Positions 35,573 through 48,752 of a stretch of 64,000 bases of DNA are shown here, in pieces. The stretch is taken from the NCBI GenBank assembly GCA_016218365.1, contig JACREF010000015.1, forward strand, positions 1-64,000, written 5' to 3'. Each line of letters begins with the position of its first letter. Position 1 is the first letter of the stretch. Under the pieces are notes generated by a model. That model made no database searches. It saw nothing but the letters and a program-made list of their open reading frames with translations, and was not told where the DNA came from. This DNA comes from Gammaproteobacteria bacterium. Its GTDB lineage: Bacteria; Pseudomonadota; Gammaproteobacteria; SZUA-140. The position numbers and the translations under genes were made by a program.

Positions 35573-36985
35573 ATGTCTATGCTTGCCAAGATCAAACCGC
35601 TGCACTGGGGACTGTTGACGCTGCTGGGCTGGGGCGCCGTTGTACTGGCCAGCGGCCTGCTGCGGCTCGACGACACCCAGCACATCAACGAGGGTGCCGC
35701 ACGCGCACTGCTGCTGGTATGGTCGGTCGCCGACCGGGTCATCAGCCCGATCGTCACGCTCGGCATCCCCGATTTCCGCGCGGTGCTGTTCATCCCGCTG
35801 GGCCTGTACTGGCCCGGCAGCATCATCGCCGCCAAGGTGTTCACCTTGCTGCTGGCCTTTGCCGCCGCATGGCTGCTGCATCGCTGGAGCAGCCGCCGCC
35901 ACGGCGCCGAGGCGGCGCTGATTGCCACCGGCCTGCTGCTGATCTCGCCGTTTGTGCTGACCCAGGTCGACACACTGGGGGCCGGGCCATTCCTGCTGCT
36001 GATGCTGGCGCTCGGCGCCTGGATGGATGAGCGTTACCGTCATAACACGCGGCCGCTCGGCGGCTGGTATTTCCTGCAGCTGATGCTGATCGTCATCGCA
36101 CTGACGCTGCATCCGGCGGCGCTGGCCTACCCGGTGGCGCTGGCCTGGCACTGGTATCGTCAGCCGCTCGACACCCGCCAGCAGCGTCATTATTTCATCG
36201 GCATCGCGCTGGCCACGCTGTTTGCGCTGGTGATCAGGGGCGGCTGGGATCTGGTGCCGTGGTTCAACAACCTGCTGACGGCCTTTGCCGATTCGATCCT
36301 GACCTCGCCCGGCGACACCTCACGCTGGCTGATCGGGGCGCTGGTGCTGGTGCCTTTGCTGGCCGTGCTGGTGGCCGAGCGCCGGGCCATCCGCGACGAC
36401 CTGATGACGCGCATCCTGGCGCTGGCGGTGCTGTGCGGCGCACTGGCCGCCGACGGCAGCTGGGTGCTGCTGTGCATCACGACCTTGCTGTATCTGGGCA
36501 CACAACGCCTGATCCTGCTCAACCAGTTGCTCGGCGCACAGAACATGCTCGGGCAGCGCGGCCTGGTGCTGGCCATATTGCTGGTGGTGACGACGCTGTT
36601 CATGCAGAGCGACAAGGCGCACCGCACCGCCATCCTGGTCAATGATATCCCGCCCGATGACCTGCTGATCATGACGCTGGCGCAGGAACTGGCAGACCTG
36701 CCGGCTGAACAGCAGATCCTGATCATGAGTCAGTGGCCGGGACGCACAATGCTGGCGGTGCGCCGCCCGGTGGTATCCTTGCCACCCGCCTATCCGGATG
36801 CCGCAACGCTGCAGAAAAACACCCGCGCCGCGACCCACCTGATCTTTGATCCGCGCCATCCTGCCAGCCGGGCGCTGCGCGATCAGCTGCTGGAGATCCC
36901 GGACTACAGCCATCCGCTGTCGATCCAGCCCGGCGGCGTGATCCTGAAGCTGCGTGACGACAGCACGGCGCCAACACGGGGCTAG
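35573..36985 (+). CDS. Polytopic membrane protein, glycosyltransferase-39-like in outline
   Basis: The gene encodes 470 residues. About nine or ten helices lie in the first 345 residues (WGLLTLLGWGAVVLASGLL at the start). A luminal-type loop with Asp pair follows the first helix (RLDDTQHINEG), a position where GT39/GT83-type membrane glycosyltransferases have catalytic acids. The C-terminal part is soluble (ILVNDIPPDDLLIMTLAQEL). It may be a lipid-linked sugar transferase, but no decisive motif is visible. Confidence 0.65.
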   Translation: MSMLAKIKPLHWGLLTLLGWGAVVLASGLLRLDDTQHINEGAARALLLVWSVADRVISPIVTLGIPDFRAVLFIPLGLYWPGSIIAAKVFTLLLAFAAAWLLHRWSSRRHGAEAALIATGLLLISPFVLTQVDTLGAGPFLLLMLALGAWMDERYRHNTRPLGGWYFLQLMLIVIALTLHPAALAYPVALAWHWYRQPLDTRQQRHYFIGIALATLFALVIRGGWDLVPWFNNLLTAFADSILTSPGDTSRWLIGALVLVPLLAVLVAERRAIRDDLMTRILALAVLCGALAADGSWVLLCITTLLYLGTQRLILLNQLLGAQNMLGQRGLVLAILLVVTTLFMQSDKAHRTAILVNDIPPDDLLIMTLAQELADLPAEQQILIMSQWPGRTMLAVRRPVVSLPPAYPDAATLQKNTRAATHLIFDPRHPASRALRDQLLEIPDYSHPLSIQPGGVILKLRDDSTAPTRG

Positions 36986-37124
36986 TATCCGGGCACTGCC
37001 GGCCCGTGACATTCATTTACATTCCTCTACACCGCCATGATTCGCAGCGGGCCAAGCCTGTCTTATTGTTGGTGCTGTCGGGATCTTCCCGATCCGGACA
37101 GGACAACATTACTCAGGAGTTACT

Positions 37125-37230
37125 ATGAAAAAAGTCATCGCGTTTGCCTCTGCCGCCACCCTGCTCGCCGCCTTCTCGATACCCGGCATGGGCGGCTGAA
37201 GCCGTGGGTACTATAGCCGGTAAATCCTAA
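37125..37230 (+). pseudogene. Frameshifted small secreted-peptide gene
   Basis: CAGGAG precedes ATG 37125. The frame reads MKKVIAFASAATLLAAFSIP GMGG and stops at 37199. Removing one G from ATGGGCGG (37188-37195) restores a signal peptide ending PGMAA followed by EAVGTIAGKS and a TAA at 37230, where a repeat-like sequence begins. It is probably a decayed gene for a short exported peptide. The stretch 37231-37383 holds no gene. Confidence 0.5.
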
Positions 37231-37383
37231 CAGCCTGCTGAAATCACCCAGGCAACGCCTGTTGCATGAAACGCCATACTGGCCTGGGCTATTGCCGCAC
37301 CGAAACGATGGCCGTTAAAGTGGCCACCTGTTAGACTGAGGCCGGCTTAAGACGCGTCGAGGCAACAGCCCGATATCAATTCC

Positions 37384-37443
37384 ATGAACACTGAACTGTG
37401 GGTTACCGCCGAGCAGGTCACGCAGCATCTGGGCATCACATGA
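37384..37443 (+). pseudogene. N-terminal remnant of an excisionase-type HTH gene
   Basis: The 19 codons read MNTELWVTAEQVTQHLGIT, then TGA. This is the first part of the winged-helix/MerR-type domain of small HTH proteins often found at the head of hsd operons. The rest is missing. The stop overlaps the next start by ATGA, so the fragment could still serve as a leader for translational coupling. Confidence 0.5.
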
Positions 37444-39077
37444 GCCAGGAAGGACAACTCCTCGACCAGAAGTCATTGCGGGCAGTGACCGGCAAGACGG
37501 CAGACTGGAACGAGATCGCCAAGGATTGCATTGCCTTTGCCAATGCAACGGGCGGTCGGCTGCTGCTGGGCGTCGAGGATGGGCAGGATGCGCCGCCGGC
37601 CGGTCAAACAATCCCCGCCGACCTGCCCGACACCGTTCGGCGCAAGCTGGCCGAGCGCACCGTCAACGTTGCCGCGCTGCCTGATATCGTCACCGCTCCC
37701 AATGGCGGCCAGTACATCGAATTGCGCATCCCGCGCGCCATGGCCGTAGCGTCCACCACCGATGGCCGGTACTTCCTGCGCGTGGCCGATCAGAGCAAGC
37801 CCGTCACAGGCGACGACGTGATGCGGCTGGCCAGCGAGCGTTCCGCGCTGCCATGGGAAACGCAGACCACCTTGCATATTCCTCGCGTCGAGGCGGATGC
37901 GGCCAAGCGCGACAAGCTGCTGCAGGCCTTGCGCGCATCCGACCGCGTCAAGGCTTCAGTCAAGGAAAAGACCGACGATGAGTTGCTCGATCACTATCAG
38001 CTCGCGCAAGGGCAGACTCTTACCAACTTGGGCGTGCTCTGCCTTGGCCGCCAGCATCACCGCGCCCAACTCACCACAGCACCGGTCATCCAGTTCATCA
38101 AGTACGACGAGCACGGCCAGAAGGTCAACAAGCTGGTGTGGGACGACCACACGCAAAGCCCGATGGAACTGATCGAGGCGATCTGGCTGGAGGTGCCTGA
38201 CTTCCGCGAGCGCTACGAACTGCCCGATGGCCTGTACCGCCAGAACGTGCCGGCCTTCGATGAAATCGTGGTGCGCGAACTGTTGGTCAACGCGCTGGTG
38301 CATCGCCCCTACACCCAGCGCGGTGACATCTTCCTTAATCTGCATCCGGATCGGCTGGAGGTGGTCAACCCCGGCCCATTGCCACTGGGCGTCACGCCGC
38401 AGAATGTGCTGCACACCACCGTGCGCCGCAACGAGCACCTGGCCCGCCTGTTCCACGACCTGAAGCTGATGGAACGCGAAGGCAGTGGCTTCGACAAGAT
38501 CTTCGAGGTGCTGCTGTCTCAAGGCCGCCCGGCGCCGGAGCTGATCGAAACCCACGATCGCGTGCAGGTGACCGTACGCCGCCGCATCCTGAAGCCCGAG
38601 GTCATCGAATTCATCGCCAAGGCAGATCAGACCTACCAGCTCACCCAGCGCGAACGTATTGCCCTGGGCCTCCTGGCCCAGCACGACGCACTGACCGCAC
38701 GCGAGCTGGCAACCACCCTTGAGCTGCCATCGGTCGAAGCACTGCAGCCCTGGCTCAAGCGCCTGCTGGACTGGCATCTGGTGCAGAGCGCCGGCCGCAC
38801 CCAGGCCACGCGCTATTTTGTTGATCCGGGCCTGCTGCGCAGTCTCAATTTCACCGGCGAAACCACCCTCAAGCGCATCGAACCACATCGACTGGCCGCG
38901 CTGGTGCTCGAGGACCTGCAGCGCTACCCCGAGTCCGCCATCGGCGACATCCACCGGCGCATCGGTGGCGAGATTCATTCCAAGCAAGTCAAGCGCGCAT
39001 TGGAAGAGTTGATAGAGCGCGGCGCCGTGCGCTTTGAAGGCAACTACCGCTGGCGGCGGTACTGGGCGGTGTCATGA
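37440..39077 (+). CDS. AlbA_2/Schlafen-type ATP-binding protein of the hsd island
   Basis: The gene encodes 545 residues from ATG 37440. The N-terminal AlbA_2 domain (SLRAVTGKTADWNEIAKDCI, AFANATGGRLLLGVEDG) is followed by an ATP-binding region of COG2865 type (FDEIVVRELLVNALVHRPYT, LMEREGSGFDKIFE). C-terminal winged helices follow (LTARELATTLELPSVEALQP). Such proteins recur beside type I restriction genes and are thought to regulate or assist them. Overlaps by four bases at both ends tie it into the operon. Confidence 0.82.
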   Translation: MSQEGQLLDQKSLRAVTGKTADWNEIAKDCIAFANATGGRLLLGVEDGQDAPPAGQTIPADLPDTVRRKLAERTVNVAALPDIVTAPNGGQYIELRIPRAMAVASTTDGRYFLRVADQSKPVTGDDVMRLASERSALPWETQTTLHIPRVEADAAKRDKLLQALRASDRVKASVKEKTDDELLDHYQLAQGQTLTNLGVLCLGRQHHRAQLTTAPVIQFIKYDEHGQKVNKLVWDDHTQSPMELIEAIWLEVPDFRERYELPDGLYRQNVPAFDEIVVRELLVNALVHRPYTQRGDIFLNLHPDRLEVVNPGPLPLGVTPQNVLHTTVRRNEHLARLFHDLKLMEREGSGFDKIFEVLLSQGRPAPELIETHDRVQVTVRRRILKPEVIEFIAKADQTYQLTQRERIALGLLAQHDALTARELATTLELPSVEALQPWLKRLLDWHLVQSAGRTQATRYFVDPGLLRSLNFTGETTLKRIEPHRLAALVLEDLQRYPESAIGDIHRRIGGEIHSKQVKRALEELIERGAVRFEGNYRWRRYWAVS

Positions 39078-39244
39078 ACAAGCTATCGGACAACTTGCGC
39101 CATATCGGCGATAGCTGGGCGATAGAGAGAGGGCGATACGCCGGCGCCGGCCCCATGAATCAAAGCGTTCTATCGCCCACCGACAGTGCGCTGTGGGCGA
39201 TAGCCGCGCAACCGAACCTCACGTATTTCAGGACGCACCCATGA
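39074..39244 (+). CDS. 56-residue ORF linking the AlbA gene to hsdM
   Basis: ATG 39074 overlaps the preceding stop (ATGA) and its TGA overlaps the hsdM start (ATGA). It begins MNKLSDNLRHIGDSWAIERG and ends AIAAQPNLTYFRTHP. No family is recognised. The DNA also holds five copies of GGCGATAG, so the reading frame could be incidental to a regulatory region, or be a leader peptide. The double overlap favours translation. Confidence 0.45.
   Translation: MNKLSDNLRHIGDSWAIERGRYAGAGPMNQSVLSPTDSALWAIAAQPNLTYFRTHP
39107..39203. promoter_or_regulatory. Cluster of GGCGATAG words before hsdM
   Basis: Direct copies at 39107-39114, 39118-39125, 39132-39139 (GGCGATAC) and 39196-39203, and one inverted copy (CTATCGCC) at 39170-39177. 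Five copies of an 8-mer in 97 bp is unlikely by chance and suggests an operator for a restriction-system regulator. Confidence 0.55.
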
Positions 39245-41373
39245 GCGCCAACTTCCAACAACTTGCCAACTTCATCTGGTCCGTCGCCGATCTGCTGCGT
39301 GGCCCCTACCGCCCGCCGCAATACGAGCGTGTAATGCTGCCGCTCACGGTACTGCGCCGCTTCGATGCCGTGCTGGCGCCGAGCAAGGAGACAGTACTCA
39401 AGCGCCATGCCGAATTGACCAGTAAGGGCATGGCCAACATCGATGCCATCCTCAACAACCTGGCCAAGGATGAAAACGGCACTCCGCTGGGCTTCCACAA
39501 CCACAGTCACCTCGACTTCTACAAGCTCAAGGGCGATCCGGACAACATCGGCCGCCACCTGGCCGACTACATCAACGGCTTCTCCGAGAATATCCGCAAG
39601 ATCTTCGAGCGCTTCGAGTTCGAGAAGGAGATCGAAAAGCTCGAAGAGTCGAACCGCCTCTACCAGGTGGTTTCCCAATTCGCGGAGATCGACCTGCATC
39701 CGCGCAAGGTCGACAACATCACCATGGGTCTGGTGTTCGAAGACCTGATCCGGCGCTTCAACGAATCCGCCAATGAAACCGCGGGCGATCACTTCACGCC
39801 GCGAGAAGTCATTCAGCTCATGGTCAATCTGTTGCTGGAGCCCGATACCAACGTGCTCACACAGGCAGGTGTCATCGTCACTATCTGCGACCCGGCCTGC
39901 GGCACGGGCGGCATGCTGGCCGAGGCGCAAAACTGGATACGCGCCCACAACGAACAAGCGACCGTGAAGGTGTACGGGCAGGATTACAACCCGCGCTCGT
40001 ATGCCGTGGCTGCCTCCGACCTCTTGATCAAGGGCCAAAAGGACAGTCGCGTCGAGCTCGGCAACACGCTCACTGATGATCGCTTTGGCGACATGCACTG
40101 GTTCGATTACCTGCTGGCCAACCCGCCGTTTGGCGTGGACTGGAAAGCCGAGAAAAAGGAAATCGACCGCTGGCCAAACTTCCGTGGCTACACCGGCAAG
40201 CTACCACGCATCAACGACGGCGCCTTGCTCTTCCTGCTGCACATGATCAGCAAGTTTGCGGACTATCAGCCGGGCAACAAGGATTTGCCCGGCTCGCGCA
40301 CCGCCGTGGTCTTCAACGGCTCGCCCCTGTTCGCCGGCAGCGCCGGCAGCGGAGAAAGCGACATCCGCCGCTGGATCATCGAACGCGACCAGCTCGAAGC
40401 CATCGTCGCCCTGCCCGAGCAGATGTTCTACAACACCGGCATCGGCACCTTCATCTGGGTGGTCACCAACCGCAAGGCCGAGCACCGCAGGGGCAAGATC
40501 CAGCTCATCGACGCCCGCGAGCGCTACACGCCGATGAAGCGAAGTCTGGGCAACAAGCGCCGCTACCTCGACCAGGCTGCGCTTGATGACATCACGCGCG
40601 AACACGGCGCCATGGAGAACAGTAAGACCAGTCGCGTGTTCGACAACACCGACTTCGGCTACCGCCGCATCACCGTGCTCCGCCCGTTGCGGCTGCGCTT
40701 CCAGATCACCGACGAAGCACGCGAGCGCTTCCTCAACACCTGTCCCGAGCTGTTCGATGCCCTTCAGGCCGTACAGGACGAACTCGGCACTGAGCCGCTG
40801 CTGGACTGGAACCAGGCGTGGAATTCGGTGCAGAAGGTGTTCAGGGATCTGCCGGACGACATCGAGGGCTGGGCCAAGGGGGCGAAGGGGGCCGCGCAGA
40901 AGAAGATCTTCCGCGACTGTTTCACCGTGGTCGACCCCGAGGCCGCGCCCGTCATCGACAAGCACCACAAGGTCGAGCCGCTCGAGCGCGCCGCACTATT
41001 CCCCGACCAGACGCTCCCCACCGACCTTGCGAAGGATGATCTCTACACGCTGCTGGGTCTGCACGCCGACGGCAAAGGCAAGCACATCGAGTACGAACCC
41101 GACCCGGCGCTCAAGGATGCCGAGAACATCCCGCTGAAAGAAGGCATCGCCAGTTACTTCCTGCGTGAAGTGCGGCCCTACGTGCCCGATGCTTGGATCG
41201 ACCGCGAGACGCTGGACGAGCAGGACGACGGCATCGGCAAGGTGGGCTACGAGATCAACTTCAATCGCGTGTTCTTCCAGTACCAGCCACCGCGGCCGCT
41301 CCACGAGATCGATGCGGAGCTGGCCGGTGTCGAGCAGCGGATTCTGGAGTTGCTGCGCGAGGTGACGCAATGA
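39241..41373 (+). CDS. hsdM: Type I restriction-modification methyltransferase HsdM
   Basis: The gene encodes 710 residues. It is an adenine N6-methyltransferase and forms M2S with HsdS for modification and, with HsdR, restriction. N-terminal helical domain (FIWSVADLLRGPYRPPQYER), then the SAM site ICDPACGTGGMLAEAQNW and the catalytic motif LLANPPFGVDW. The start at 39241 removes the upstream extension. It is longer than E. coli HsdM (about 530) through its C-terminal region (KHHKVEPLERAALFPDQTLP), as in a common subfamily. Confidence 0.95.
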   Translation: MSANFQQLANFIWSVADLLRGPYRPPQYERVMLPLTVLRRFDAVLAPSKETVLKRHAELTSKGMANIDAILNNLAKDENGTPLGFHNHSHLDFYKLKGDPDNIGRHLADYINGFSENIRKIFERFEFEKEIEKLEESNRLYQVVSQFAEIDLHPRKVDNITMGLVFEDLIRRFNESANETAGDHFTPREVIQLMVNLLLEPDTNVLTQAGVIVTICDPACGTGGMLAEAQNWIRAHNEQATVKVYGQDYNPRSYAVAASDLLIKGQKDSRVELGNTLTDDRFGDMHWFDYLLANPPFGVDWKAEKKEIDRWPNFRGYTGKLPRINDGALLFLLHMISKFADYQPGNKDLPGSRTAVVFNGSPLFAGSAGSGESDIRRWIIERDQLEAIVALPEQMFYNTGIGTFIWVVTNRKAEHRRGKIQLIDARERYTPMKRSLGNKRRYLDQAALDDITREHGAMENSKTSRVFDNTDFGYRRITVLRPLRLRFQITDEARERFLNTCPELFDALQAVQDELGTEPLLDWNQAWNSVQKVFRDLPDDIEGWAKGAKGAAQKKIFRDCFTVVDPEAAPVIDKHHKVEPLERAALFPDQTLPTDLAKDDLYTLLGLHADGKGKHIEYEPDPALKDAENIPLKEGIASYFLREVRPYVPDAWIDRETLDEQDDGIGKVGYEINFNRVFFQYQPPRPLHEIDAELAGVEQRILELLREVTQ

Positions 41374-42644
41374 CGCCCACCATTCCTGTCGGCCCCGAAG
41401 CGCGGCGGCTTCGCTTTATTTTCGAAACCAAATCGGGTGCAACGCCTTCGAGTGGCGTTGAGGAGTACTGGGACGGTGATATCAACTGGGTGACGCCGGA
41501 AGACCTCGGCAAGCTCGGAGATCGCTATGTCCGAGAAACTCGCCGCCGCATTACCGAGGAGGGCTACAGGAACAGCGCAGTCAGCCTTGCTTTACCCGGT
41601 TCAATAGTCCTCTCGAAGCGAGCGCCGATCGGTCAAACCGCAATCCTTGCGGAGCCCTCCACTTGCAATCAGGGTTGTTTCCTGCTGACCCGCGTTAACC
41701 GCGTAGACGAGCGCTTCTACTACTACGCCTTGATTCACTTGCGTCCTGCTCTGGAGGCCTTGGGTCGAGGTTCGACCTTCATGGAGCTGTCCGCTGATGA
41801 TCTGCGGTCAGTGCCGATGCCATTTCCGAGTCAAGTGGACCAGCAGCTCATCGCCGACTACCTCGACCGCGAACTCGCCCGCATCGACGGGCTGATTTCC
41901 GAGAAGGAACGGATGCTGGCGCTGCTGGAAGAAAAGCGCGCGGCCCTCATCAGCCGCACAGTGACCCGCGGCCTTGACCCCAAAGTGCCACTCAAGCCCT
42001 CTGGCCAAGATTGGCTCGGTGAGATCCCGGTGCATTGGGAAGTTCGTACGCTGAAGCGGTCTAGTTCGAGAATCGACACGGGAACAACTCCCTCCGCGTC
42101 ATTCATGGATGGGTCGCTGCCTTCAGATTTCACGTGGTTCACGCCAAGCGATTTTAAACATGGTGGCGTGATTACTGAATCAAATAGGAAAATTCCACAA
42201 CAGGCAGTGGATGAAGGAGAGGCAAAGGTCTTTCCTGCGCACTCGCTTATGGTTATAGGGATTGGCGCGACGCTAGGCAAGGTGGCTAGTTCTATTGCTG
42301 AGTTTTCGGCGAATCAGCAGATCAATGTGATCACGCCATCAGATTCAATTCGTTGGGATTACCTGCTCTATGTCCTGCAGGGGTACGAGAATGTATTCAG
42401 TGCACATGCAAACTCAGCCACGTTACCGATCCTCAATCAGGAGCGACTGGGCTTCATTCGAGTTCCTGTGCCGCCGCCTGCCGAACAAGACGCGATCGTC
42501 AGGAAGCTAAATGAGTCGCGCGCAGCCTACACAGAGGTCTATCGATCGCTTGGCGACTCAACCTCCTTGCTCAAGGAACGCCGCGCCGCGCTTATCTCCG
42601 CGGCTGTCACCGGCCAGATCCCACGGGAGGAGATAACTGGATGA
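41370..42644 (+). CDS. hsdS: Type I specificity subunit HsdS
   Basis: The gene encodes 424 residues, ATGA overlap with hsdM. Two target-recognition domains, each followed by a conserved helix: LIADYLDRELARIDGLISEK with ALLEEKRAALISRTVTRG, and later DAIVRKLNESRAAY with LLKERRAALISAAVTGQIP. The second domain begins at WLGEIPVHWEVRTLKR. The first lacks the usual leading segment and starts almost directly at the recognition domain. Base composition drops within the second domain (about 42050-42450), a sign of domain exchange. Confidence 0.94.
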   Translation: MTPTIPVGPEARRLRFIFETKSGATPSSGVEEYWDGDINWVTPEDLGKLGDRYVRETRRRITEEGYRNSAVSLALPGSIVLSKRAPIGQTAILAEPSTCNQGCFLLTRVNRVDERFYYYALIHLRPALEALGRGSTFMELSADDLRSVPMPFPSQVDQQLIADYLDRELARIDGLISEKERMLALLEEKRAALISRTVTRGLDPKVPLKPSGQDWLGEIPVHWEVRTLKRSSSRIDTGTTPSASFMDGSLPSDFTWFTPSDFKHGGVITESNRKIPQQAVDEGEAKVFPAHSLMVIGIGATLGKVASSIAEFSANQQINVITPSDSIRWDYLLYVLQGYENVFSAHANSATLPILNQERLGFIRVPVPPPAEQDAIVRKLNESRAAYTEVYRSLGDSTSLLKERRAALISAAVTGQIPREEITG

Positions 42645-43954
42645 AGCTTGAAACCCTTTCCCTGGCGCACTGCGGCGGGTTCGAGCAGCTCGACATCGCC
42701 TTCGAGCCGGATGTGACACTGATCGCCGGTGTCAACGGCGTGGGCAAGTCCACAGTGCTGCACGCGCTGACGGTTCTGCTGTCACGGGCAATGCCGGAGT
42801 TCACACCCTCGCGCTCGGTGCCGCTGTACTTCACCGATGACGACATCCACGGTGACAAGGACTCGTTGGAGGTGTCCGCGCGCATCCGGATCGATGGGCA
42901 GACCATCAATGCCGGGGTGCAGCGCTTGCGCGCGGCGGACGAGAAGGGCGACCGCTTCATGCTGCTGCGGCAGGCCGAATATGCCACCGGCGCCACCGAT
43001 TTCGCCCAGGCGCTGAGCGCCCGCACGCTGACCGGTGAGCTGGAAGCGGGCATGAAGGAGACCCGCGCCGCGCTGGCGACCCTGAAGAGCACGGCCCATC
43101 CGCCGCTGGCAGTGTATTTCTCGCCCAAGCGCCAGTTGCCCGGGCAGCCGCGCAGCCTGCCAGAGGCCAAGCCCTTCGAACCGTCCATCGCCTACGGCCG
43201 CGCTCTGCACGATCGCGAGGTGGAACTGCGCGAGTTCATGCACTGGTTCCGCACCCAGGAGAAGCTGGGCGCGGCCAGCGAGCCACGCCGACTCAAGGTG
43301 CTGGACGCGCTGTGTACCGTGGTCAGCGACCTCGTGCCCGAGTTCAGCAACCTGCGCATCCAGGAGCAACCGCGCCTCGGCTTCGTGGTGGACAAGCGCG
43401 GCCAGCCCTTCTACCTGCATCAGCTGTCCGACGGTGAGCGCGGCCTGCTGGCCCTGGTGTTCGACCTCACCCGGCGCCTGGCCATCGCCAACCCGGACAG
43501 CGACAACCCCATCGCCGACGGCGTGGCGCTGGTGCTGATCGATGAGATCGAGCTACACCTGCATCCCAAGTGGCAGCGCGATGTCATCAAGCGACTTCCG
43601 GCCATTTTCAAGAGCTGCCAGTTCGTCATTACAACACACTCACCCCAGGTGATCGGTGAGACGGAAGCGAGCTGCGTCAGACTTCTTTCCTGGTGTAATG
43701 GGAAAGTGGTTGTCGACACGCCTGCCATGGCCTATGGCACAGACTCGAATTGGATTCTCAATGTGCTTATGGGCGCAGACGAGATGAATGAGGATGTGGA
43801 GGCCGCATTGGAAACCGTCTCCCGACATATTGCTGAGCGCAGTCTCGATAAAGCGAGAGCACTGATTGAAACGCTGCGAAAGAATGTCGGCAACACGGAA
43901 GCCATTCAGCGACTGGCTTCAATGATCGAACGCGTCGAGCGGCTGGGAAAATGA
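42641..43954 (+). CDS. SMC/RecF-like AAA ATPase, PtuA-like
   Basis: The gene encodes 437 residues. Walker A LIAGVNGVGKSTVLHALTVL, signature HQLSDGERGLLALVFDL, Walker B VALVLIDEIELHLHPKW and the H-loop VITTHSPQVIGE mark an ABC-type ATPase of the OLD/RecF class with no TOPRIM domain. Followed by an HNH-type gene in ATGA overlap, it matches the PtuA/PtuB plan of Septu defence. It is inserted between hsdS and hsdR. It may sense DNA ends or phage products and license the partner nuclease. Confidence 0.82.
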   Translation: MKLETLSLAHCGGFEQLDIAFEPDVTLIAGVNGVGKSTVLHALTVLLSRAMPEFTPSRSVPLYFTDDDIHGDKDSLEVSARIRIDGQTINAGVQRLRAADEKGDRFMLLRQAEYATGATDFAQALSARTLTGELEAGMKETRAALATLKSTAHPPLAVYFSPKRQLPGQPRSLPEAKPFEPSIAYGRALHDREVELREFMHWFRTQEKLGAASEPRRLKVLDALCTVVSDLVPEFSNLRIQEQPRLGFVVDKRGQPFYLHQLSDGERGLLALVFDLTRRLAIANPDSDNPIADGVALVLIDEIELHLHPKWQRDVIKRLPAIFKSCQFVITTHSPQVIGETEASCVRLLSWCNGKVVVDTPAMAYGTDSNWILNVLMGADEMNEDVEAALETVSRHIAERSLDKARALIETLRKNVGNTEAIQRLASMIERVERLGK

Positions 43955-44667
43955 GACAAGTTGCCAAAGGAAATACACCCAATTGCCTGCAAGCATTTAT
44001 TGATGCGCAGTTGGCCATAAAACCGGAACCCGTCAATCTCACCTACCGAGACTTCCCTTATAAATCTGCCCTGTGCGAGACTCTGACCCGAGAGCAGTAC
44101 GGTCTTTGCGGATACACCGGCGCTCCAGTCGACGAGCGGATAACACAACTCCAACCGGCAGTTGCCGGCCCCAGCTTCAGAAACCATATCGAACACCTGA
44201 AATGTCAGCAGGCCTGTCGTGACGAGGTGACGGGCCGAGACGAAGAGTACGGCCGAGTTGTGGGCGACGATCTAAACTACCGAAACATGATCGCCGCATT
44301 GGAAGTGCGCGGAGCGGAAGTGGAACATTTTGGAGCGGTCGCCAAGGCCGCCCGCACTCTGCCTGTGCTGCCGACCCACGAGGACTGCGAAGAACGCTTT
44401 GTATTTCGTGAAGGGGATGGCAGCGTTGATGGACTGGGCGATACCGCGCGCACCTCGATTTCTGTGCTTGCACTGAATCACGACACATTGAAAGGCTGGC
44501 GCTTATCAGCTCTTTCGACATGGCTGGACCCGTTAATCGTCCAGACTCGGGAGGACTTCATGGATGTACTTCAGGCCGTAACCACGCCGAATAATGAACG
44601 GCTGCCAGAGTACGCATTTGTAATAGAGTCCGTAGCAAAGGGGTACATAAATGAAAATGACCTCTGA
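43951..44667 (+). CDS. HNH-type endonuclease-like protein, PtuB-like (TIGR02646-related)
   Basis: The gene encodes 238 residues. Features of PtuB-type HNH nucleases: YGLCGYTGAPVDE (zinc-knuckle-like start, though one Cys of CxxC is replaced by Tyr-Thr), NHIEHLKCQ (general base His), DLNYRNMIAAL (metal Asn), and ALNHDTLKGWRLSAL resembling the ILNLN region. Coupled to the upstream ATPase by ATGA and overlapping hsdR by 17 bases. Base composition is lower in GC than hsdR. The assignment rests on motif order, not on a search. Confidence 0.72.
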   Translation: MRQVAKGNTPNCLQAFIDAQLAIKPEPVNLTYRDFPYKSALCETLTREQYGLCGYTGAPVDERITQLQPAVAGPSFRNHIEHLKCQQACRDEVTGRDEEYGRVVGDDLNYRNMIAALEVRGAEVEHFGAVAKAARTLPVLPTHEDCEERFVFREGDGSVDGLGDTARTSISVLALNHDTLKGWRLSALSTWLDPLIVQTREDFMDVLQAVTTPNNERLPEYAFVIESVAKGYINENDL

Positions 44668-47600
44668 GGTGGCATTTGAAACCGCCATCGAGTCAGTCTT
44701 GCTGGCCGAGGGGTACACGCCCTTCAGCGCCAAGGGCTTCGACCGCGAGCGGGCGATCTTTCCTGATGAGGCGCTGGAGTTCATCCGTGCCACCCAGGCC
44801 AAGGTGTGGGAGAAGTTGGAGGCGCAGCACGGGGAGCACACGGGCGCGCGGGTGATGGAATCCCTGTGCAAGTGGCTGGACACCCACGGCACGCTGGCCA
44901 CGCTGCGTCACGGCTTCAAGTGTTTCGGCAAAACGCTGCGGATCGCCTTCTTCCGCCCGGCCCACGGCCTGAACCCGGAGCTGGAGGCGCGCTATCAGGC
45001 CAATCGGCTTGGGCTGACCCGCCAATTGCACTTCAGCCCGAAGTCGGAGAAGTCGCTGGATGTGGTGCTGTCGGTCAACGGTATTCCGGTGGTGACGCTG
45101 GAACTCAAGAACCCGTTGAGCGGCCAGACGGCGGCGAATGCCATCCACCAGTACCGCCACGACCGCGATCCGCGTGAACCGATCTTCGTGTTCACCAAGC
45201 GCGCGCTGGTGCACTTCGCGGTGGACACCGAAGAGGCGCACATGGCCACGCGCCTGGCCGGTTCATCCACCTACTTTCTGCCCTTCAACCGGGGCATGGA
45301 CGGTGGCGCTGGTAACCCGCCCGACCGTGGGGGGCGCAACTACAAGACAGCCTACGTCTGGGAAGAGGTCTTGCAACGCGACAGCCTGCTCGACTTGCTC
45401 GCCCGCTTTCTGCATCTCGATGTGGAAGAGAAGACCACGGACGACGGCAAGAAGCTGCGCAAGGAGAGCCTGATCTTTCCGCGCTATCACCAGTTGCAGG
45501 CGGTGCGCCAGATAGTGGCGGCCGCCGCGAGCGAAGGCGTGGGGCACAACTATCTGGTGGAACATTCGGCCGGCAGCGGCAAGAGCAACACCATTGCCTG
45601 GCTGGCGCATCGTCTGTCCAGCCTGCACAACGAGCGCGACGAGCGGCTGTTCGACAGCGTGGTCGTCATCACCGACCGCGTGGTGCTGGACCGCCAGTTG
45701 CAGAACACAATCTACCAGTTCGACCACCGCCAGGGTGTGGTGCAGAAGATCGACGAGGACTCGCGCCAGCTGGCTGAGGCGCTGGAAGCCGGTGTGCCGA
45801 TCATCATCACCACGCTGCAGAAGTTTCCGTTCGTCTCCGGACAGCTGGCCAAGCTGAGCGAGGAGCGCGGCGAAGGGGGAAAGAGCCACCTACCGACGCG
45901 CAAGTACGCAGTGATCATCGACGAGGCGCACAGCTCGCAGTCGGGCGAGACGGCGACCGAGCTCAAGGGTGTGCTGGGCGGCGCCGAGCTGCGCCGCAAG
46001 GCGCAGGAGATGGCCGAGGAGGAGGGCGAAGTCGAGCTGGAACGACTGTTCCGTTCCATGGCCAAGCGGGGCCATCAGCCGAACATGAGCTTCTTCGCCT
46101 TCACCGCCACGCCCAAGCACAAGACGCTGGCGATCTTCGGCCGCAACGGCGAACCCTTCCACCGTTACACCATGCGCCAGGCCATCGAGGAGGGCTTCAT
46201 CGAGGACGTGCTGAAGAGCTACGTCACCTACAAGACCTACTACAAGCTGATCAAGAAGGCCGAGGACGACCCCAACGTCGAACGCAAGAAAGCCGCCAAG
46301 GCGCTGGCCCGCTTCATGCGCCTGCATCCGCACAACATCGGCCAGAAGACCGAGGTGATGGTCGAACACTTCCAACACTTCACCCGACACAAGATTGGCG
46401 GGCATGCCAAGGCGATGGTGGTGACCGGCTCGCGGCTGGAGGCAGTACGCTACAAGCAGGAGTTCGACCGCTACATCCAGGAGAAGGGCTACCCGATCAA
46501 GAGCCTGGTGGCGTTTTCGGGCAGCGTTGAAGACGACAAGATTCCTTCGATCAGCTACACCGAAGTGGAGATGAATGGCGGACTGAAGGAGAAGGAGTTG
46601 CCGGACACCTTCGCCAAGCCGGATTTCCGCGTGCTGCTGGTGGCCGAGAAATACCAGACCGGCTTTGACCAGCCGCTGCTGCACACGATGTACGTGGACA
46701 AGCGCCTTGGGGGTATTCAGGCGGTGCAGACACTGTCGCGCTTGAACCGCACCCACCCGCTCAAGGACGACACCTTCGTGCTCGACTTCGTCAACGAACC
46801 CGGCGAGATTCAGGAGGCCTTCCGCCAGTACTACGAAGGCTCGGTGATGGGCGAGCAAGTGGACCCGGACAAGCTCTACGAGGTGAAAGCGGAACTCGAT
46901 GCCTCGGGCATCTACCTGCAGACCGAGGTCGCCGAGTTCGCGCGCGTATTTTTCGCACCAAAGCGCCGCCAGAGCCCCGGCGACCACAAGACGATGAACG
47001 CGATTCTAGATCAGGCAGTCGCCCGCTTTGCGCAATTGCAGAATAAGGAAGAGGAGGAGGCTGAGCTGTGGCGCGGCAAGCTACAGGCCTTCCGCAATCT
47101 GTACAGCTTTCTGAGTCAAGTGATTCCTTATCAGGACAGCGATCTGGAAAAGCTGTTCACGTATCTGCGGCACCTCGCGTTGAAGCTGCCCAAGCGCAAG
47201 AGCGGGCCGGGATACCAGTTTGATGCGGAGATCGAGCTCGACTACTACCGGTTGCAGAAAATCAGTGAAGGCTCGATCAGCCTCAATGAGGGCTATGCTA
47301 AACCGCTGGATGGCCCGCATGAGGTGGGGTCGGGCATGGTGCGCGAGGAGCATGTTTCGCTATCGCGCCTTATCGACATCATCAACCAGCGCTTCGGCGG
47401 CGAACTCAACGAGGCAGATCAGCTGTTCTTCGACCAGATCGCCGAGGCGGCCAGCCAAAGCGAAGCGCTGCAGAAGGCAGCCGAGGTCAACTCCCTCGAC
47501 AAGTTCCAGCTGGTGTTCCGGCAGGTGCTCGAGTCCCTGTTCATCGAACGCATGGAACTAAATGAGGAGCTATTCACCGACTACATGGGAAAGCCGGAGA

Positions 47601-47677
47601 TGCAGGAGCTGGTATCAAAGTGGCTCGGAAGCCAAGTCTATGATCGTCTTTCGGTGGCAAAGAGGAGCAGCCCGTAG
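44651..47677 (+). CDS. hsdR: Type I restriction endonuclease subunit HsdR
   Basis: The gene encodes 1008 residues. N-terminal nuclease region with SLDVVLSVNGIPVVTLELKN (the D-ExK site), then SF2 translocase: HSAGSGKSNTIAWLA (Walker A), YAVIIDEAHSSQSGE (DEAH box), FFAFTATPKHKT, and VQTLSRLNRTHP (motif VI). A C-terminal helical domain binds the M2S core. It cuts unmodified DNA after translocation. Complete and in frame. It ends the seven-gene overlap chain. Confidence 0.95.
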   Translation: MKMTSEVAFETAIESVLLAEGYTPFSAKGFDRERAIFPDEALEFIRATQAKVWEKLEAQHGEHTGARVMESLCKWLDTHGTLATLRHGFKCFGKTLRIAFFRPAHGLNPELEARYQANRLGLTRQLHFSPKSEKSLDVVLSVNGIPVVTLELKNPLSGQTAANAIHQYRHDRDPREPIFVFTKRALVHFAVDTEEAHMATRLAGSSTYFLPFNRGMDGGAGNPPDRGGRNYKTAYVWEEVLQRDSLLDLLARFLHLDVEEKTTDDGKKLRKESLIFPRYHQLQAVRQIVAAAASEGVGHNYLVEHSAGSGKSNTIAWLAHRLSSLHNERDERLFDSVVVITDRVVLDRQLQNTIYQFDHRQGVVQKIDEDSRQLAEALEAGVPIIITTLQKFPFVSGQLAKLSEERGEGGKSHLPTRKYAVIIDEAHSSQSGETATELKGVLGGAELRRKAQEMAEEEGEVELERLFRSMAKRGHQPNMSFFAFTATPKHKTLAIFGRNGEPFHRYTMRQAIEEGFIEDVLKSYVTYKTYYKLIKKAEDDPNVERKKAAKALARFMRLHPHNIGQKTEVMVEHFQHFTRHKIGGHAKAMVVTGSRLEAVRYKQEFDRYIQEKGYPIKSLVAFSGSVEDDKIPSISYTEVEMNGGLKEKELPDTFAKPDFRVLLVAEKYQTGFDQPLLHTMYVDKRLGGIQAVQTLSRLNRTHPLKDDTFVLDFVNEPGEIQEAFRQYYEGSVMGEQVDPDKLYEVKAELDASGIYLQTEVAEFARVFFAPKRRQSPGDHKTMNAILDQAVARFAQLQNKEEEEAELWRGKLQAFRNLYSFLSQVIPYQDSDLEKLFTYLRHLALKLPKRKSGPGYQFDAEIELDYYRLQKISEGSISLNEGYAKPLDGPHEVGSGMVREEHVSLSRLIDIINQRFGGELNEADQLFFDQIAEAASQSEALQKAAEVNSLDKFQLVFRQVLESLFIERMELNEELFTDYMGKPEMQELVSKWLGSQVYDRLSVAKRSSP

Positions 47678-47936
47678 TGTGTGCGTATTTTGCGTCGAGG
47701 CTAGCTTTCCGGAATTTCCGGAGAGTTGATTAGGCGGCCCGCAGAGGCCAGCGCGCGTGCTCGCAAGCTCAGGAAACCAGTCAGCGCATGGTCAACCATC
47801 CGCAACCAATATTGAAAGCCCCAACCGTTCTCGGTTGAACCAAAAGGTCATTTACTATCGTATAGACTGTGCCCCGCTGCGCGTCTGGTCTGGTATCCGC
47901 CGCTGCGTTCTCCGGCAGTGGCTGAACTATAGGCCC

Positions 47937-48752
47937 TTACTGCTGGCAATGCGGACAGTAATAACTCGCGCGCTGGCCCTGCCGCAGCGTTGCTATCGGC
48001 GTGTGACAGCGCGTACACGGCTCACCGCCGCGGCCGTAGACCTTCAGGTGCTGGCGGAAATAACCCGGCCGGCCGTCGCTGGCGGTGAAGTCACGCAAGG
48101 TGGTGCCGCCCTGGCGGATCGCGGCCTGCAACACCTTTCTGATCGCGGTCACCAGCCGCCGGCACTCGTTGCGCGTGAGCGTTGCCGCCTGCCGGCGTGG
48201 ATCGATACCGGCACCAAACAAGGCCTCGCTGGCGTAGATGTTGCCGACGCCAACGACGACATGGCCATCCATGGTCAGCTGCTTGACGGCGACACGGCGA
48301 CGCTGCGCCTGCTGCCATAACACCTCCGCGGTAAAGCCTGCCTCCAGCGGTTCCGGACCCAGCCCTTGCAGCAGCCGATGTTCAAGCGGATCACGCTGCG
48401 TCCACAGCAGCAGGCCGAAGCGCCGCGGGTCGCGCAGCCGCAACACGCTGCCATTGGTCAGCACGATATCGACATGATCATGGGCGGTGGGCTTCTCTGC
48501 GGCCGTGGTCAGCCGCAGGCTGCCGGACATGCCCAGATGCAGCAGCGCCGTGCCGGCGGTGGTGCGCAGCAGGATATATTTGGCGCGACGCTCGATCGCG
48601 GTGATCGTCGCGCCGCGCATCTGCTGTGGCAGCCGCGCCGGGATCGGCTGGCGCAAGCGGCGCTGGCGCACGATGACGCCGGCGATGCGCTGGCCCTGCA
48701 GCAGCGGACGGATCCCGCTGCAGGTCGTCTCGACCTCCGGCAGTTCAGGCAT
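47937..48752 (-). CDS. mutM: Formamidopyrimidine-DNA glycosylase
   Basis: The gene encodes 271 residues. It excises 8-oxoguanine and Fapy lesions. The N-terminal MPELPEVETTCSGIRP gives catalytic Pro1 and Glu2. Lys in ERRAKYILLRT, the helix-two-turn-helix (VGVGNIYASEALFGAGIDP) and the zinc finger CTRCHTPIATLRQGQRASYY-CPHC are all present. Monocistronic; the preceding gap 47678-47936 contains nothing that I can support. Confidence 0.96.
   Translation of the reverse strand: MPELPEVETTCSGIRPLLQGQRIAGVIVRQRRLRQPIPARLPQQMRGATITAIERRAKYILLRTTAGTALLHLGMSGSLRLTTAAEKPTAHDHVDIVLTNGSVLRLRDPRRFGLLLWTQRDPLEHRLLQGLGPEPLEAGFTAEVLWQQAQRRRVAVKQLTMDGHVVVGVGNIYASEALFGAGIDPRRQAATLTRNECRRLVTAIRKVLQAAIRQGGTTLRDFTASDGRPGYFRQHLKVYGRGGEPCTRCHTPIATLRQGQRASYYCPHCQQ

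Follow-up and report, generated by a model that had tools for sequence, protein, structure and literature searches.

A Septu pair nested between hsdS and hsdR of type I restriction operons is recurrent and has its own PtuA lineage

In the 64,000-nucleotide stretch of DNA analysed here (the window), a Septu gene pair, ptuA and ptuB, is nested between hsdS and hsdR of a type I restriction-modification (RM) operon. This arrangement is recurrent and spreadable, and it has a Septu lineage of its own. It is fairly likely that this Septu lineage is specialised as cargo of a mobile type I RM unit, in which restriction would be the first line of defence and PtuAB the second.

Genes and junctions of the operon

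The chained core of the locus, hsdM-hsdS-ptuA-ptuB-hsdR, occupies positions 39241-47677 of the plus strand, on which all genes described below are located; the hsdS-ptuA-ptuB-hsdR part spans 41370-47677. All frames were found at the positions given in the initial annotation, and its gene calls are right. The first gene, hsdM (39241..41373), encodes a type I N6-adenine methyltransferase of 710 aa (PADLOC MTase_I, 4.3e-257; Pfam N6_Mtase and HsdM_N). It is followed by hsdS (41370..42644) for a specificity subunit of 424 aa (PADLOC Specificity_I, 1.1e-82), which is matched twice by Pfam Methylase_S; HsdS has two target-recognition domains and varies strongly among relatives. The restriction/translocase subunit HsdR (1008 aa, 44651..47677) matches Pfam SWI2_SNF2, HSDR_N and ResIII, and its match to TIGR00348 (3.6e-61) lies under the model's own cut-off. 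With HsdM, an HsdS with two target-recognition domains and an HsdR with helicase and nuclease regions, the gene set is that of a type I RM system.

The pair between hsdS and hsdR had been described as Septu-like, and the defence-system HMM search proposed as a check bears this out. The ptuA gene (42641..43954) codes for a Septu ABC/SMC-type ATPase of 437 aa, which matches PADLOC PtuA over residues 1-435 (1.5e-118). Its Walker A (GVNGVGKS), signature (LSDGERG) and Walker B (ALVLIDEIELHLHP) motifs are all intact, and the three motifs are invariant across the PtuA alignment (A1). The sequence also matches PtuA chains of solved structures, namely those of retron Ec83 (2.9e-37) and of Septu (PDB 8ee4, 6.2e-29). 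Among the families listed by PADLOC and NCBIfam there was no PrrC/RloC match for this protein, and PtuA ranks first.

The adjoining ptuB (43951..44667) encodes a variant HNH nuclease of 238 aa, with a PADLOC PtuB match over residues 1-233 (2.7e-26). A profile of its alignment (A2) matches the solved PtuB of PDB 8ee7 (1.6e-25), and the His and Asn of the HNH core (H82 and N112) are invariant in the 18 sequences of that alignment. For a related E. coli PtuB, H75 and N91 are required for defence, as are K43 or D316 of the PtuA that goes with it (PMC13096335). The window PtuB reads CGYTG where most have CCYC, and the later cysteines are absent. There is no Pfam match for this protein, NCBIfam TIGR02646 matches only under its cut-off, and the AlphaFold2 model is poor (pLDDT 53). 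Five other RM loci share this variant, and plasmid Septu has a comparable CxYT type. Without the usual cysteine pairs, PtuB could have another substrate or a weak activity. With a PtuA ATPase bearing all three motifs and an adjoining PtuB with an HNH core, the pair falls by sequence into Septu type I, which would predict a PtuA hexamer with two PtuB, nuclease activity and protection against phage.

Overlaps of four bases are widespread in bacterial operons. Within the core, ATGA overlaps join hsdM to hsdS (41370-41373), hsdS to ptuA (42641-42644) and ptuA to ptuB (43951-43954), and ptuB overlaps hsdR by 17 bases (44651-44667). The initial annotation had counted six ATGA junctions and one 17-base junction among seven consecutive frames, beginning with an AlbA_2 gene and a 'small ORF' upstream of hsdM. 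The 17-base junction at the end is correct, but the seven named frames have only five ATGA junctions. Six would require an eighth frame, which is a 19-aa frame at 37384-37443. Neither the AlbA_2 gene nor the 'small ORF' belongs to the conserved unit, and what remains of the chain is hsdM-hsdS-ptuA-ptuB-hsdR. Judging from this layout, its genes may be expressed as one unit. A scan of the region for promoters gave no sigma-70-like site, a result of little weight in a GC-rich host.

Recurrence, cassette exchange and slot content

A single PtuA scan of species genomes yielded 20 named loci, and in all of them hsdS is located directly upstream of ptuA. Both hsdM and hsdR are present in these loci wherever the contig is long enough, and HsdR is 85-94% identical in most of the named relatives. 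By record title the loci come from Accumulibacter, Nitrosomonas, Pseudomonas, Achromobacter, Thiocapsa and Cyanobium, among others; beyond Proteobacteria, metagenome-assembled genomes labelled Verrucomicrobiaceae and Bryobacter (Verrucomicrobia, Acidobacteria) are also represented, although such labels can be wrong. On a Ketogulonicigenium plasmid the gene order is identical. The order hsdS-ptuAB-hsdR also occurs on an Enterobacter plasmid (L139:1-17320), where the type I system is a more distant one. There, a gene for a SprT-family metalloprotease follows hsdR, and the RM and Septu genes directly adjoin genes for Tn7-like transposition. The nesting of the Septu pair between hsdS and hsdR, which had been pointed out in the window, is thus the same in many unrelated genomes. 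The notion that it is unique to this genome was rejected on account of this recurrence, and with matches to Septu as well, the locus neither lacks a defence family nor stands alone. No other PtuA was found in genomes of the same family, and the E. coli collection gave no match.

Septu as a whole is not tied to restriction. In unbiased samples, hsd genes adjoin only eight of 43 PtuA loci at the phylum level and two of six at the class level (window not counted), and a general RM linkage of Septu was rejected. The remaining loci of these samples are solitary or, in three cases, lie beside a reverse-transcriptase-like frame. In a PtuA tree of 71 rows, all members of one clade (29 of 29 rows, SH-aLRT 97, including one identical pair from the same genome in two collections) are found beside hsdS. 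Since four other RM-linked PtuA sequences fall outside this clade and branch elsewhere in the tree, the association between RM and Septu arose more than once. Of 28 loci, 27 retain the ATGA overlap between hsdS and ptuA.

A separate survey sampled loci by HsdR only and was therefore blind to PtuA. The three loci with HsdR at least 75% identical (G273, G498 and G777; 75-89%) all have ptuAB, as do three of six at 68-70% identity, while the remaining 32 loci of this survey all lack it. As many HsdR relatives, i.e. three of the six at 68-70% and the 32 others, do without ptuAB, the RM system works in its absence. PtuA is co-inherited with HsdR: distances of HsdR and of the PtuA core correlate with r 0.60, a value reached in one of 2000 permutations (relatedness uncorrected).

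Within PtuA, segment-by-segment identities revealed separate histories for residues 1-335 and for the C-terminal stretch of about 100 residues (336-437; 43646..43951), which is exchanged together with ptuB. Two tail types match two PtuB types in 23 of 23 loci (Fisher 1e-5, relatedness uncorrected). The ATPase half pairs with either tail/PtuB type, and all four combinations were seen. At the DNA level, hsdM and hsdR of loci L017 and L029 are 79-98% identical, as against mostly 50-60% in hsdS-ptuA-ptuB. When the window is compared with locus L021, identity amounts to 83-93% before hsdS and falls to 53-67% within that gene; most of ptuA reaches 75-88%, the ptuA end together with ptuB 46-50%, and hsdR again 79-91%. 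From these mosaic identities it follows that hsdS and the unit of ptuA tail and ptuB are exchanged as cassettes within a conserved frame. The simplest reading of the linkage is that the PtuA tail probably docks PtuB.

The slot between hsdS and hsdR resembles a cargo bay, and its content changes at least nine times on the HsdR tree. Elsewhere it holds IetAS, TIR (PDC-S35), FRG (PDC-S15), an OLD-like nuclease, GmrSD-type restriction, AlbA_2 proteins, DUF3800 or a D12 methyltransferase, and some loci hold nothing. In locus L094 (3167-7571), IetAS follows ptuAB in one slot; L097, its sister by HsdR, has IetAS alone. Extra genes are also found behind ptuB, namely zeta-like kinases in L013, L016 and L020 and an AbrB/PIN pair in L012. 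Duplicated gene ends occur beside cargo, of hsdR and hsdS in one case (L013:9941-10315) and of hsdM in another (L016:6566-6736). It looks as though incoming cargo brings along a copy of the gene end next to it. In L025 (3632-5527), ptuB is split by the transposase genes of an IS element.

Possible roles of the embedded pair and related systems

In the mechanism that we favour, the five genes hsdM-hsdS-ptuA-ptuB-hsdR would spread together as one mobile unit. HsdM, HsdS and HsdR would provide the first line, in which self DNA is methylated and unmethylated DNA is cut. Translation of PtuA would start at the ATGA overlap with the end of hsdS, and PtuA would form an oligomeric ATPase that holds the HNH nuclease PtuB, probably via the C-terminal tail of PtuA. 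If a phage survived restriction and disturbed the cell, PtuAB would be released and would cut nucleic acid, either DNA or tRNA as in other PtuAB systems, so that phage production would stop. The targets of PtuAB systems already described are phage DNA or tRNA-Tyr (PMC11555353, PMC13096335, PMC12948488). In retron Eco7, restraint by the retron is what keeps the pair from being toxic (PMC11555353). The operon in the window contains no reverse transcriptase frame, and the genome has a single RVT_1 match, which lies on a different contig (C11); a retron was thus rejected. Because the retron is absent, something else must restrain PtuAB here. This restraint could come from ATP or an intrinsic autoinhibition, which would be simplest, or from the RM complex.

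Nested defence systems are usually read as the result of chance clustering in islands. The Septu clade described here is seen only beside type I hsdS with a fixed translational overlap, and it tracks HsdR over deep divergence while its nuclease end is exchanged as a module. It is quite conceivable, if not our preferred reading, that the slot is simply a tolerated landing place and that shared transcription is all that links Septu to restriction. The nine or more changes of slot content and the diversity of the cargo (IetAS, TIR, FRG, GmrSD-type, OLD-like, AlbA_2, DUF3800, zeta-like and PIN genes) agree with such hitch-hiking, and an insertion of DarTG2 between hsdS and hsdR is already known (PMC12255303). 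A random landing, however, leaves unexplained why this PtuA clade is never found elsewhere and why its ATGA overlap with hsdS is fixed.

A plausible but less likely alternative is a guard of the PrrC type, in which the type I complex would physically hold PtuAB silent until Ocr- or Stp-like phage proteins disabled the complex, so that restriction failure itself would be the trigger. The initial annotation had proposed that the pair might serve as a backup when restriction fails or might use the type I complex as its sensor, and the long and exclusive association and the example of PrrC lend this some plausibility. There is a precedent in PrrC: EcoprrI, which houses it, keeps it silent, and T4 Stp activates it (PMC2610378, PMC12707154), and an action on tRNA is also possible for Septu and retron PtuAB (PMC13096335, PMC11555353). 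The effector is likewise encoded inside the type I operon in the window. Some coupling between RM and Septu is favoured because the PtuA clade is exclusive to sites beside hsdS and is co-inherited with HsdR. On the other hand, independence of PtuAB from RM is favoured because unrelated systems interchange with Septu in the slot and because TgvAB, encoded in a type I operon of V. cholerae, needs no HsdR activity to protect (PMC11411939). Moreover, residues 1-215 of PtuA occur in very different versions within the same RM background, which would be unexpected with a tight fit to HsdM, HsdS and HsdR. We regard it as unlikely that the resident Septu lineage is a PrrC-like guard whose ATPase half senses the loss of restriction and whose tail and PtuB are swapped between nuclease types, in the way hsdS is swapped for specificity. 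Finally, it is very improbable that the locus is a decaying composite that is losing its function. One could cite the truncated HTH gene at 37384-37443, the lack of cysteine pairs in the zinc-less PtuB and the IS element in ptuB of L025, but every main frame is open, the Walker and HNH residues are intact, and the PtuB variant recurs in the five other RM loci, with its CxYT counterpart in plasmid Septu. We retain second-line cargo of a mobile RM unit as the preferred reading.

Embedding of other systems in type I operons is already known for PrrC, DarTG2 and TgvAB, as is Septu inside Hma. PrrC in EcoprrI likewise combines a nuclease with an ABC-type ATPase domain and is encoded within a type I RM operon (PMC12707154, PMC2610378), and it shares its ABC-ATPase motifs with RloC (PMC2610378, PMC12707154). 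It differs in being a one-protein anticodon nuclease with an unrelated nuclease domain, and the guard mechanism is proven for PrrC but hypothetical here. The RptR-RMS-DarTG2-M48 island of EPEC also has a second system between hsdS and hsdR and, as a further likeness, a small upstream regulator with repeat operators; its cargo, however, is the toxin-antitoxin DarTG2 and not Septu, and its authors regard the slot as a potential hotspot (PMC12255303). TgvAB of V. cholerae VPI-2 is, as here, a defence system of two genes within a type I RM operon, but represents HsdR-independent type IV restriction of the GmrSD type (PMC11411939). As far as the account of Hma cited in the EPEC study goes, a Septu is nested there in another defence operon, as here, but in a helicase/methyltransferase/ATPase system and not in type I RM (PMC8565338, cited in PMC12255303). 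Septu type I shares both genes, their order and the ATPase and HNH motifs with the window pair, which differs from it in its position between hsdS and hsdR, its own PtuA clade and a PtuB without the usual cysteine pairs. The effectors of type I-A retrons (Eco7/Ec78, Ec83) are homologous to PtuA and PtuB, but here the operon is without a reverse transcriptase. A literature search in which subscription journals were thinly covered yielded no paper that describes Septu between hsdS and hsdR, a slot-restricted PtuA lineage or a tail/PtuB cassette. The arrangement opens a direct test of whether the RM complex controls an embedded Septu, as EcoprrI controls PrrC. Furthermore, the tail/PtuB linkage predicts the place on PtuA where the nuclease would dock, and it provides natural chimeras for studying the choice between DNA and tRNA as target.

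Insertion site and upstream region

The 470-aa gene to the left of the operon adjoins fpg, with the operon absent, in most genomes of the same family in which the locus can be read. Therefore, the window operon represents an insertion. In L128 the distance from the 470-aa gene to fpg is 69 bases, and the corresponding site in the window is 35573-48752.

Upstream of hsdM, the 19-aa leader frame (MNTELWVTAEQVTQHLGIT; 37384..37443) is the 5' stump of a gene for an HTH regulator of the excisionase type. In L021 the HTH gene (...PWVTASDVARHLGVVKDTVYRWRERKGLPAHKIGRLWKF...) is intact and immediately precedes the same AlbA_2 gene; in the window the rest of the HTH gene is gone. The ATGA between leader and AlbA_2 gene (37440-37443) thus looks like the product of a deletion, and the leader was rejected as a native coupled gene. 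The AlbA_2 gene itself (37440..39077) encodes a 545-aa protein with Pfam matches to SLFN_AlbA_2 (2.3e-9) and HATPase_c_4 (1.7e-19). Among the named relatives it is located upstream of hsdM only in L021, where it is 96% identical; it is accessory and probably regulatory.

The 'small ORF' of 56 codons (39074..39244) has an ATGA overlap with both the AlbA_2 gene (39074-39077) and hsdM (39241-39244), and it has no family match. Its differences between the window and L021 are distributed over the codon positions as 6/7/2, i.e. without coding constraint, and the homologous stretch in L016 is missing the start codon at the matching place. On these grounds it was rejected as a protein. It contains four GGGCGATAS sites within 87 bases (39117, 39131 and 39195 on the plus and 39170 on the minus strand), compared with six in the whole 64 kb and about 0.9 expected. 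The GGGCGATA(G/C) array (39107-39203) has both orientations just before hsdM, is kept in L021 and partly in L016, and resembles a repressor operator. The stretch 39074-39244 is thus probably an hsdM leader with a predicted operator. AlbA_2/HATPase proteins also occur as cargo in the hsdS-hsdR slot of other type I operons (L107:10082-12016, L110:11407-13275 and L101:3144-5036).
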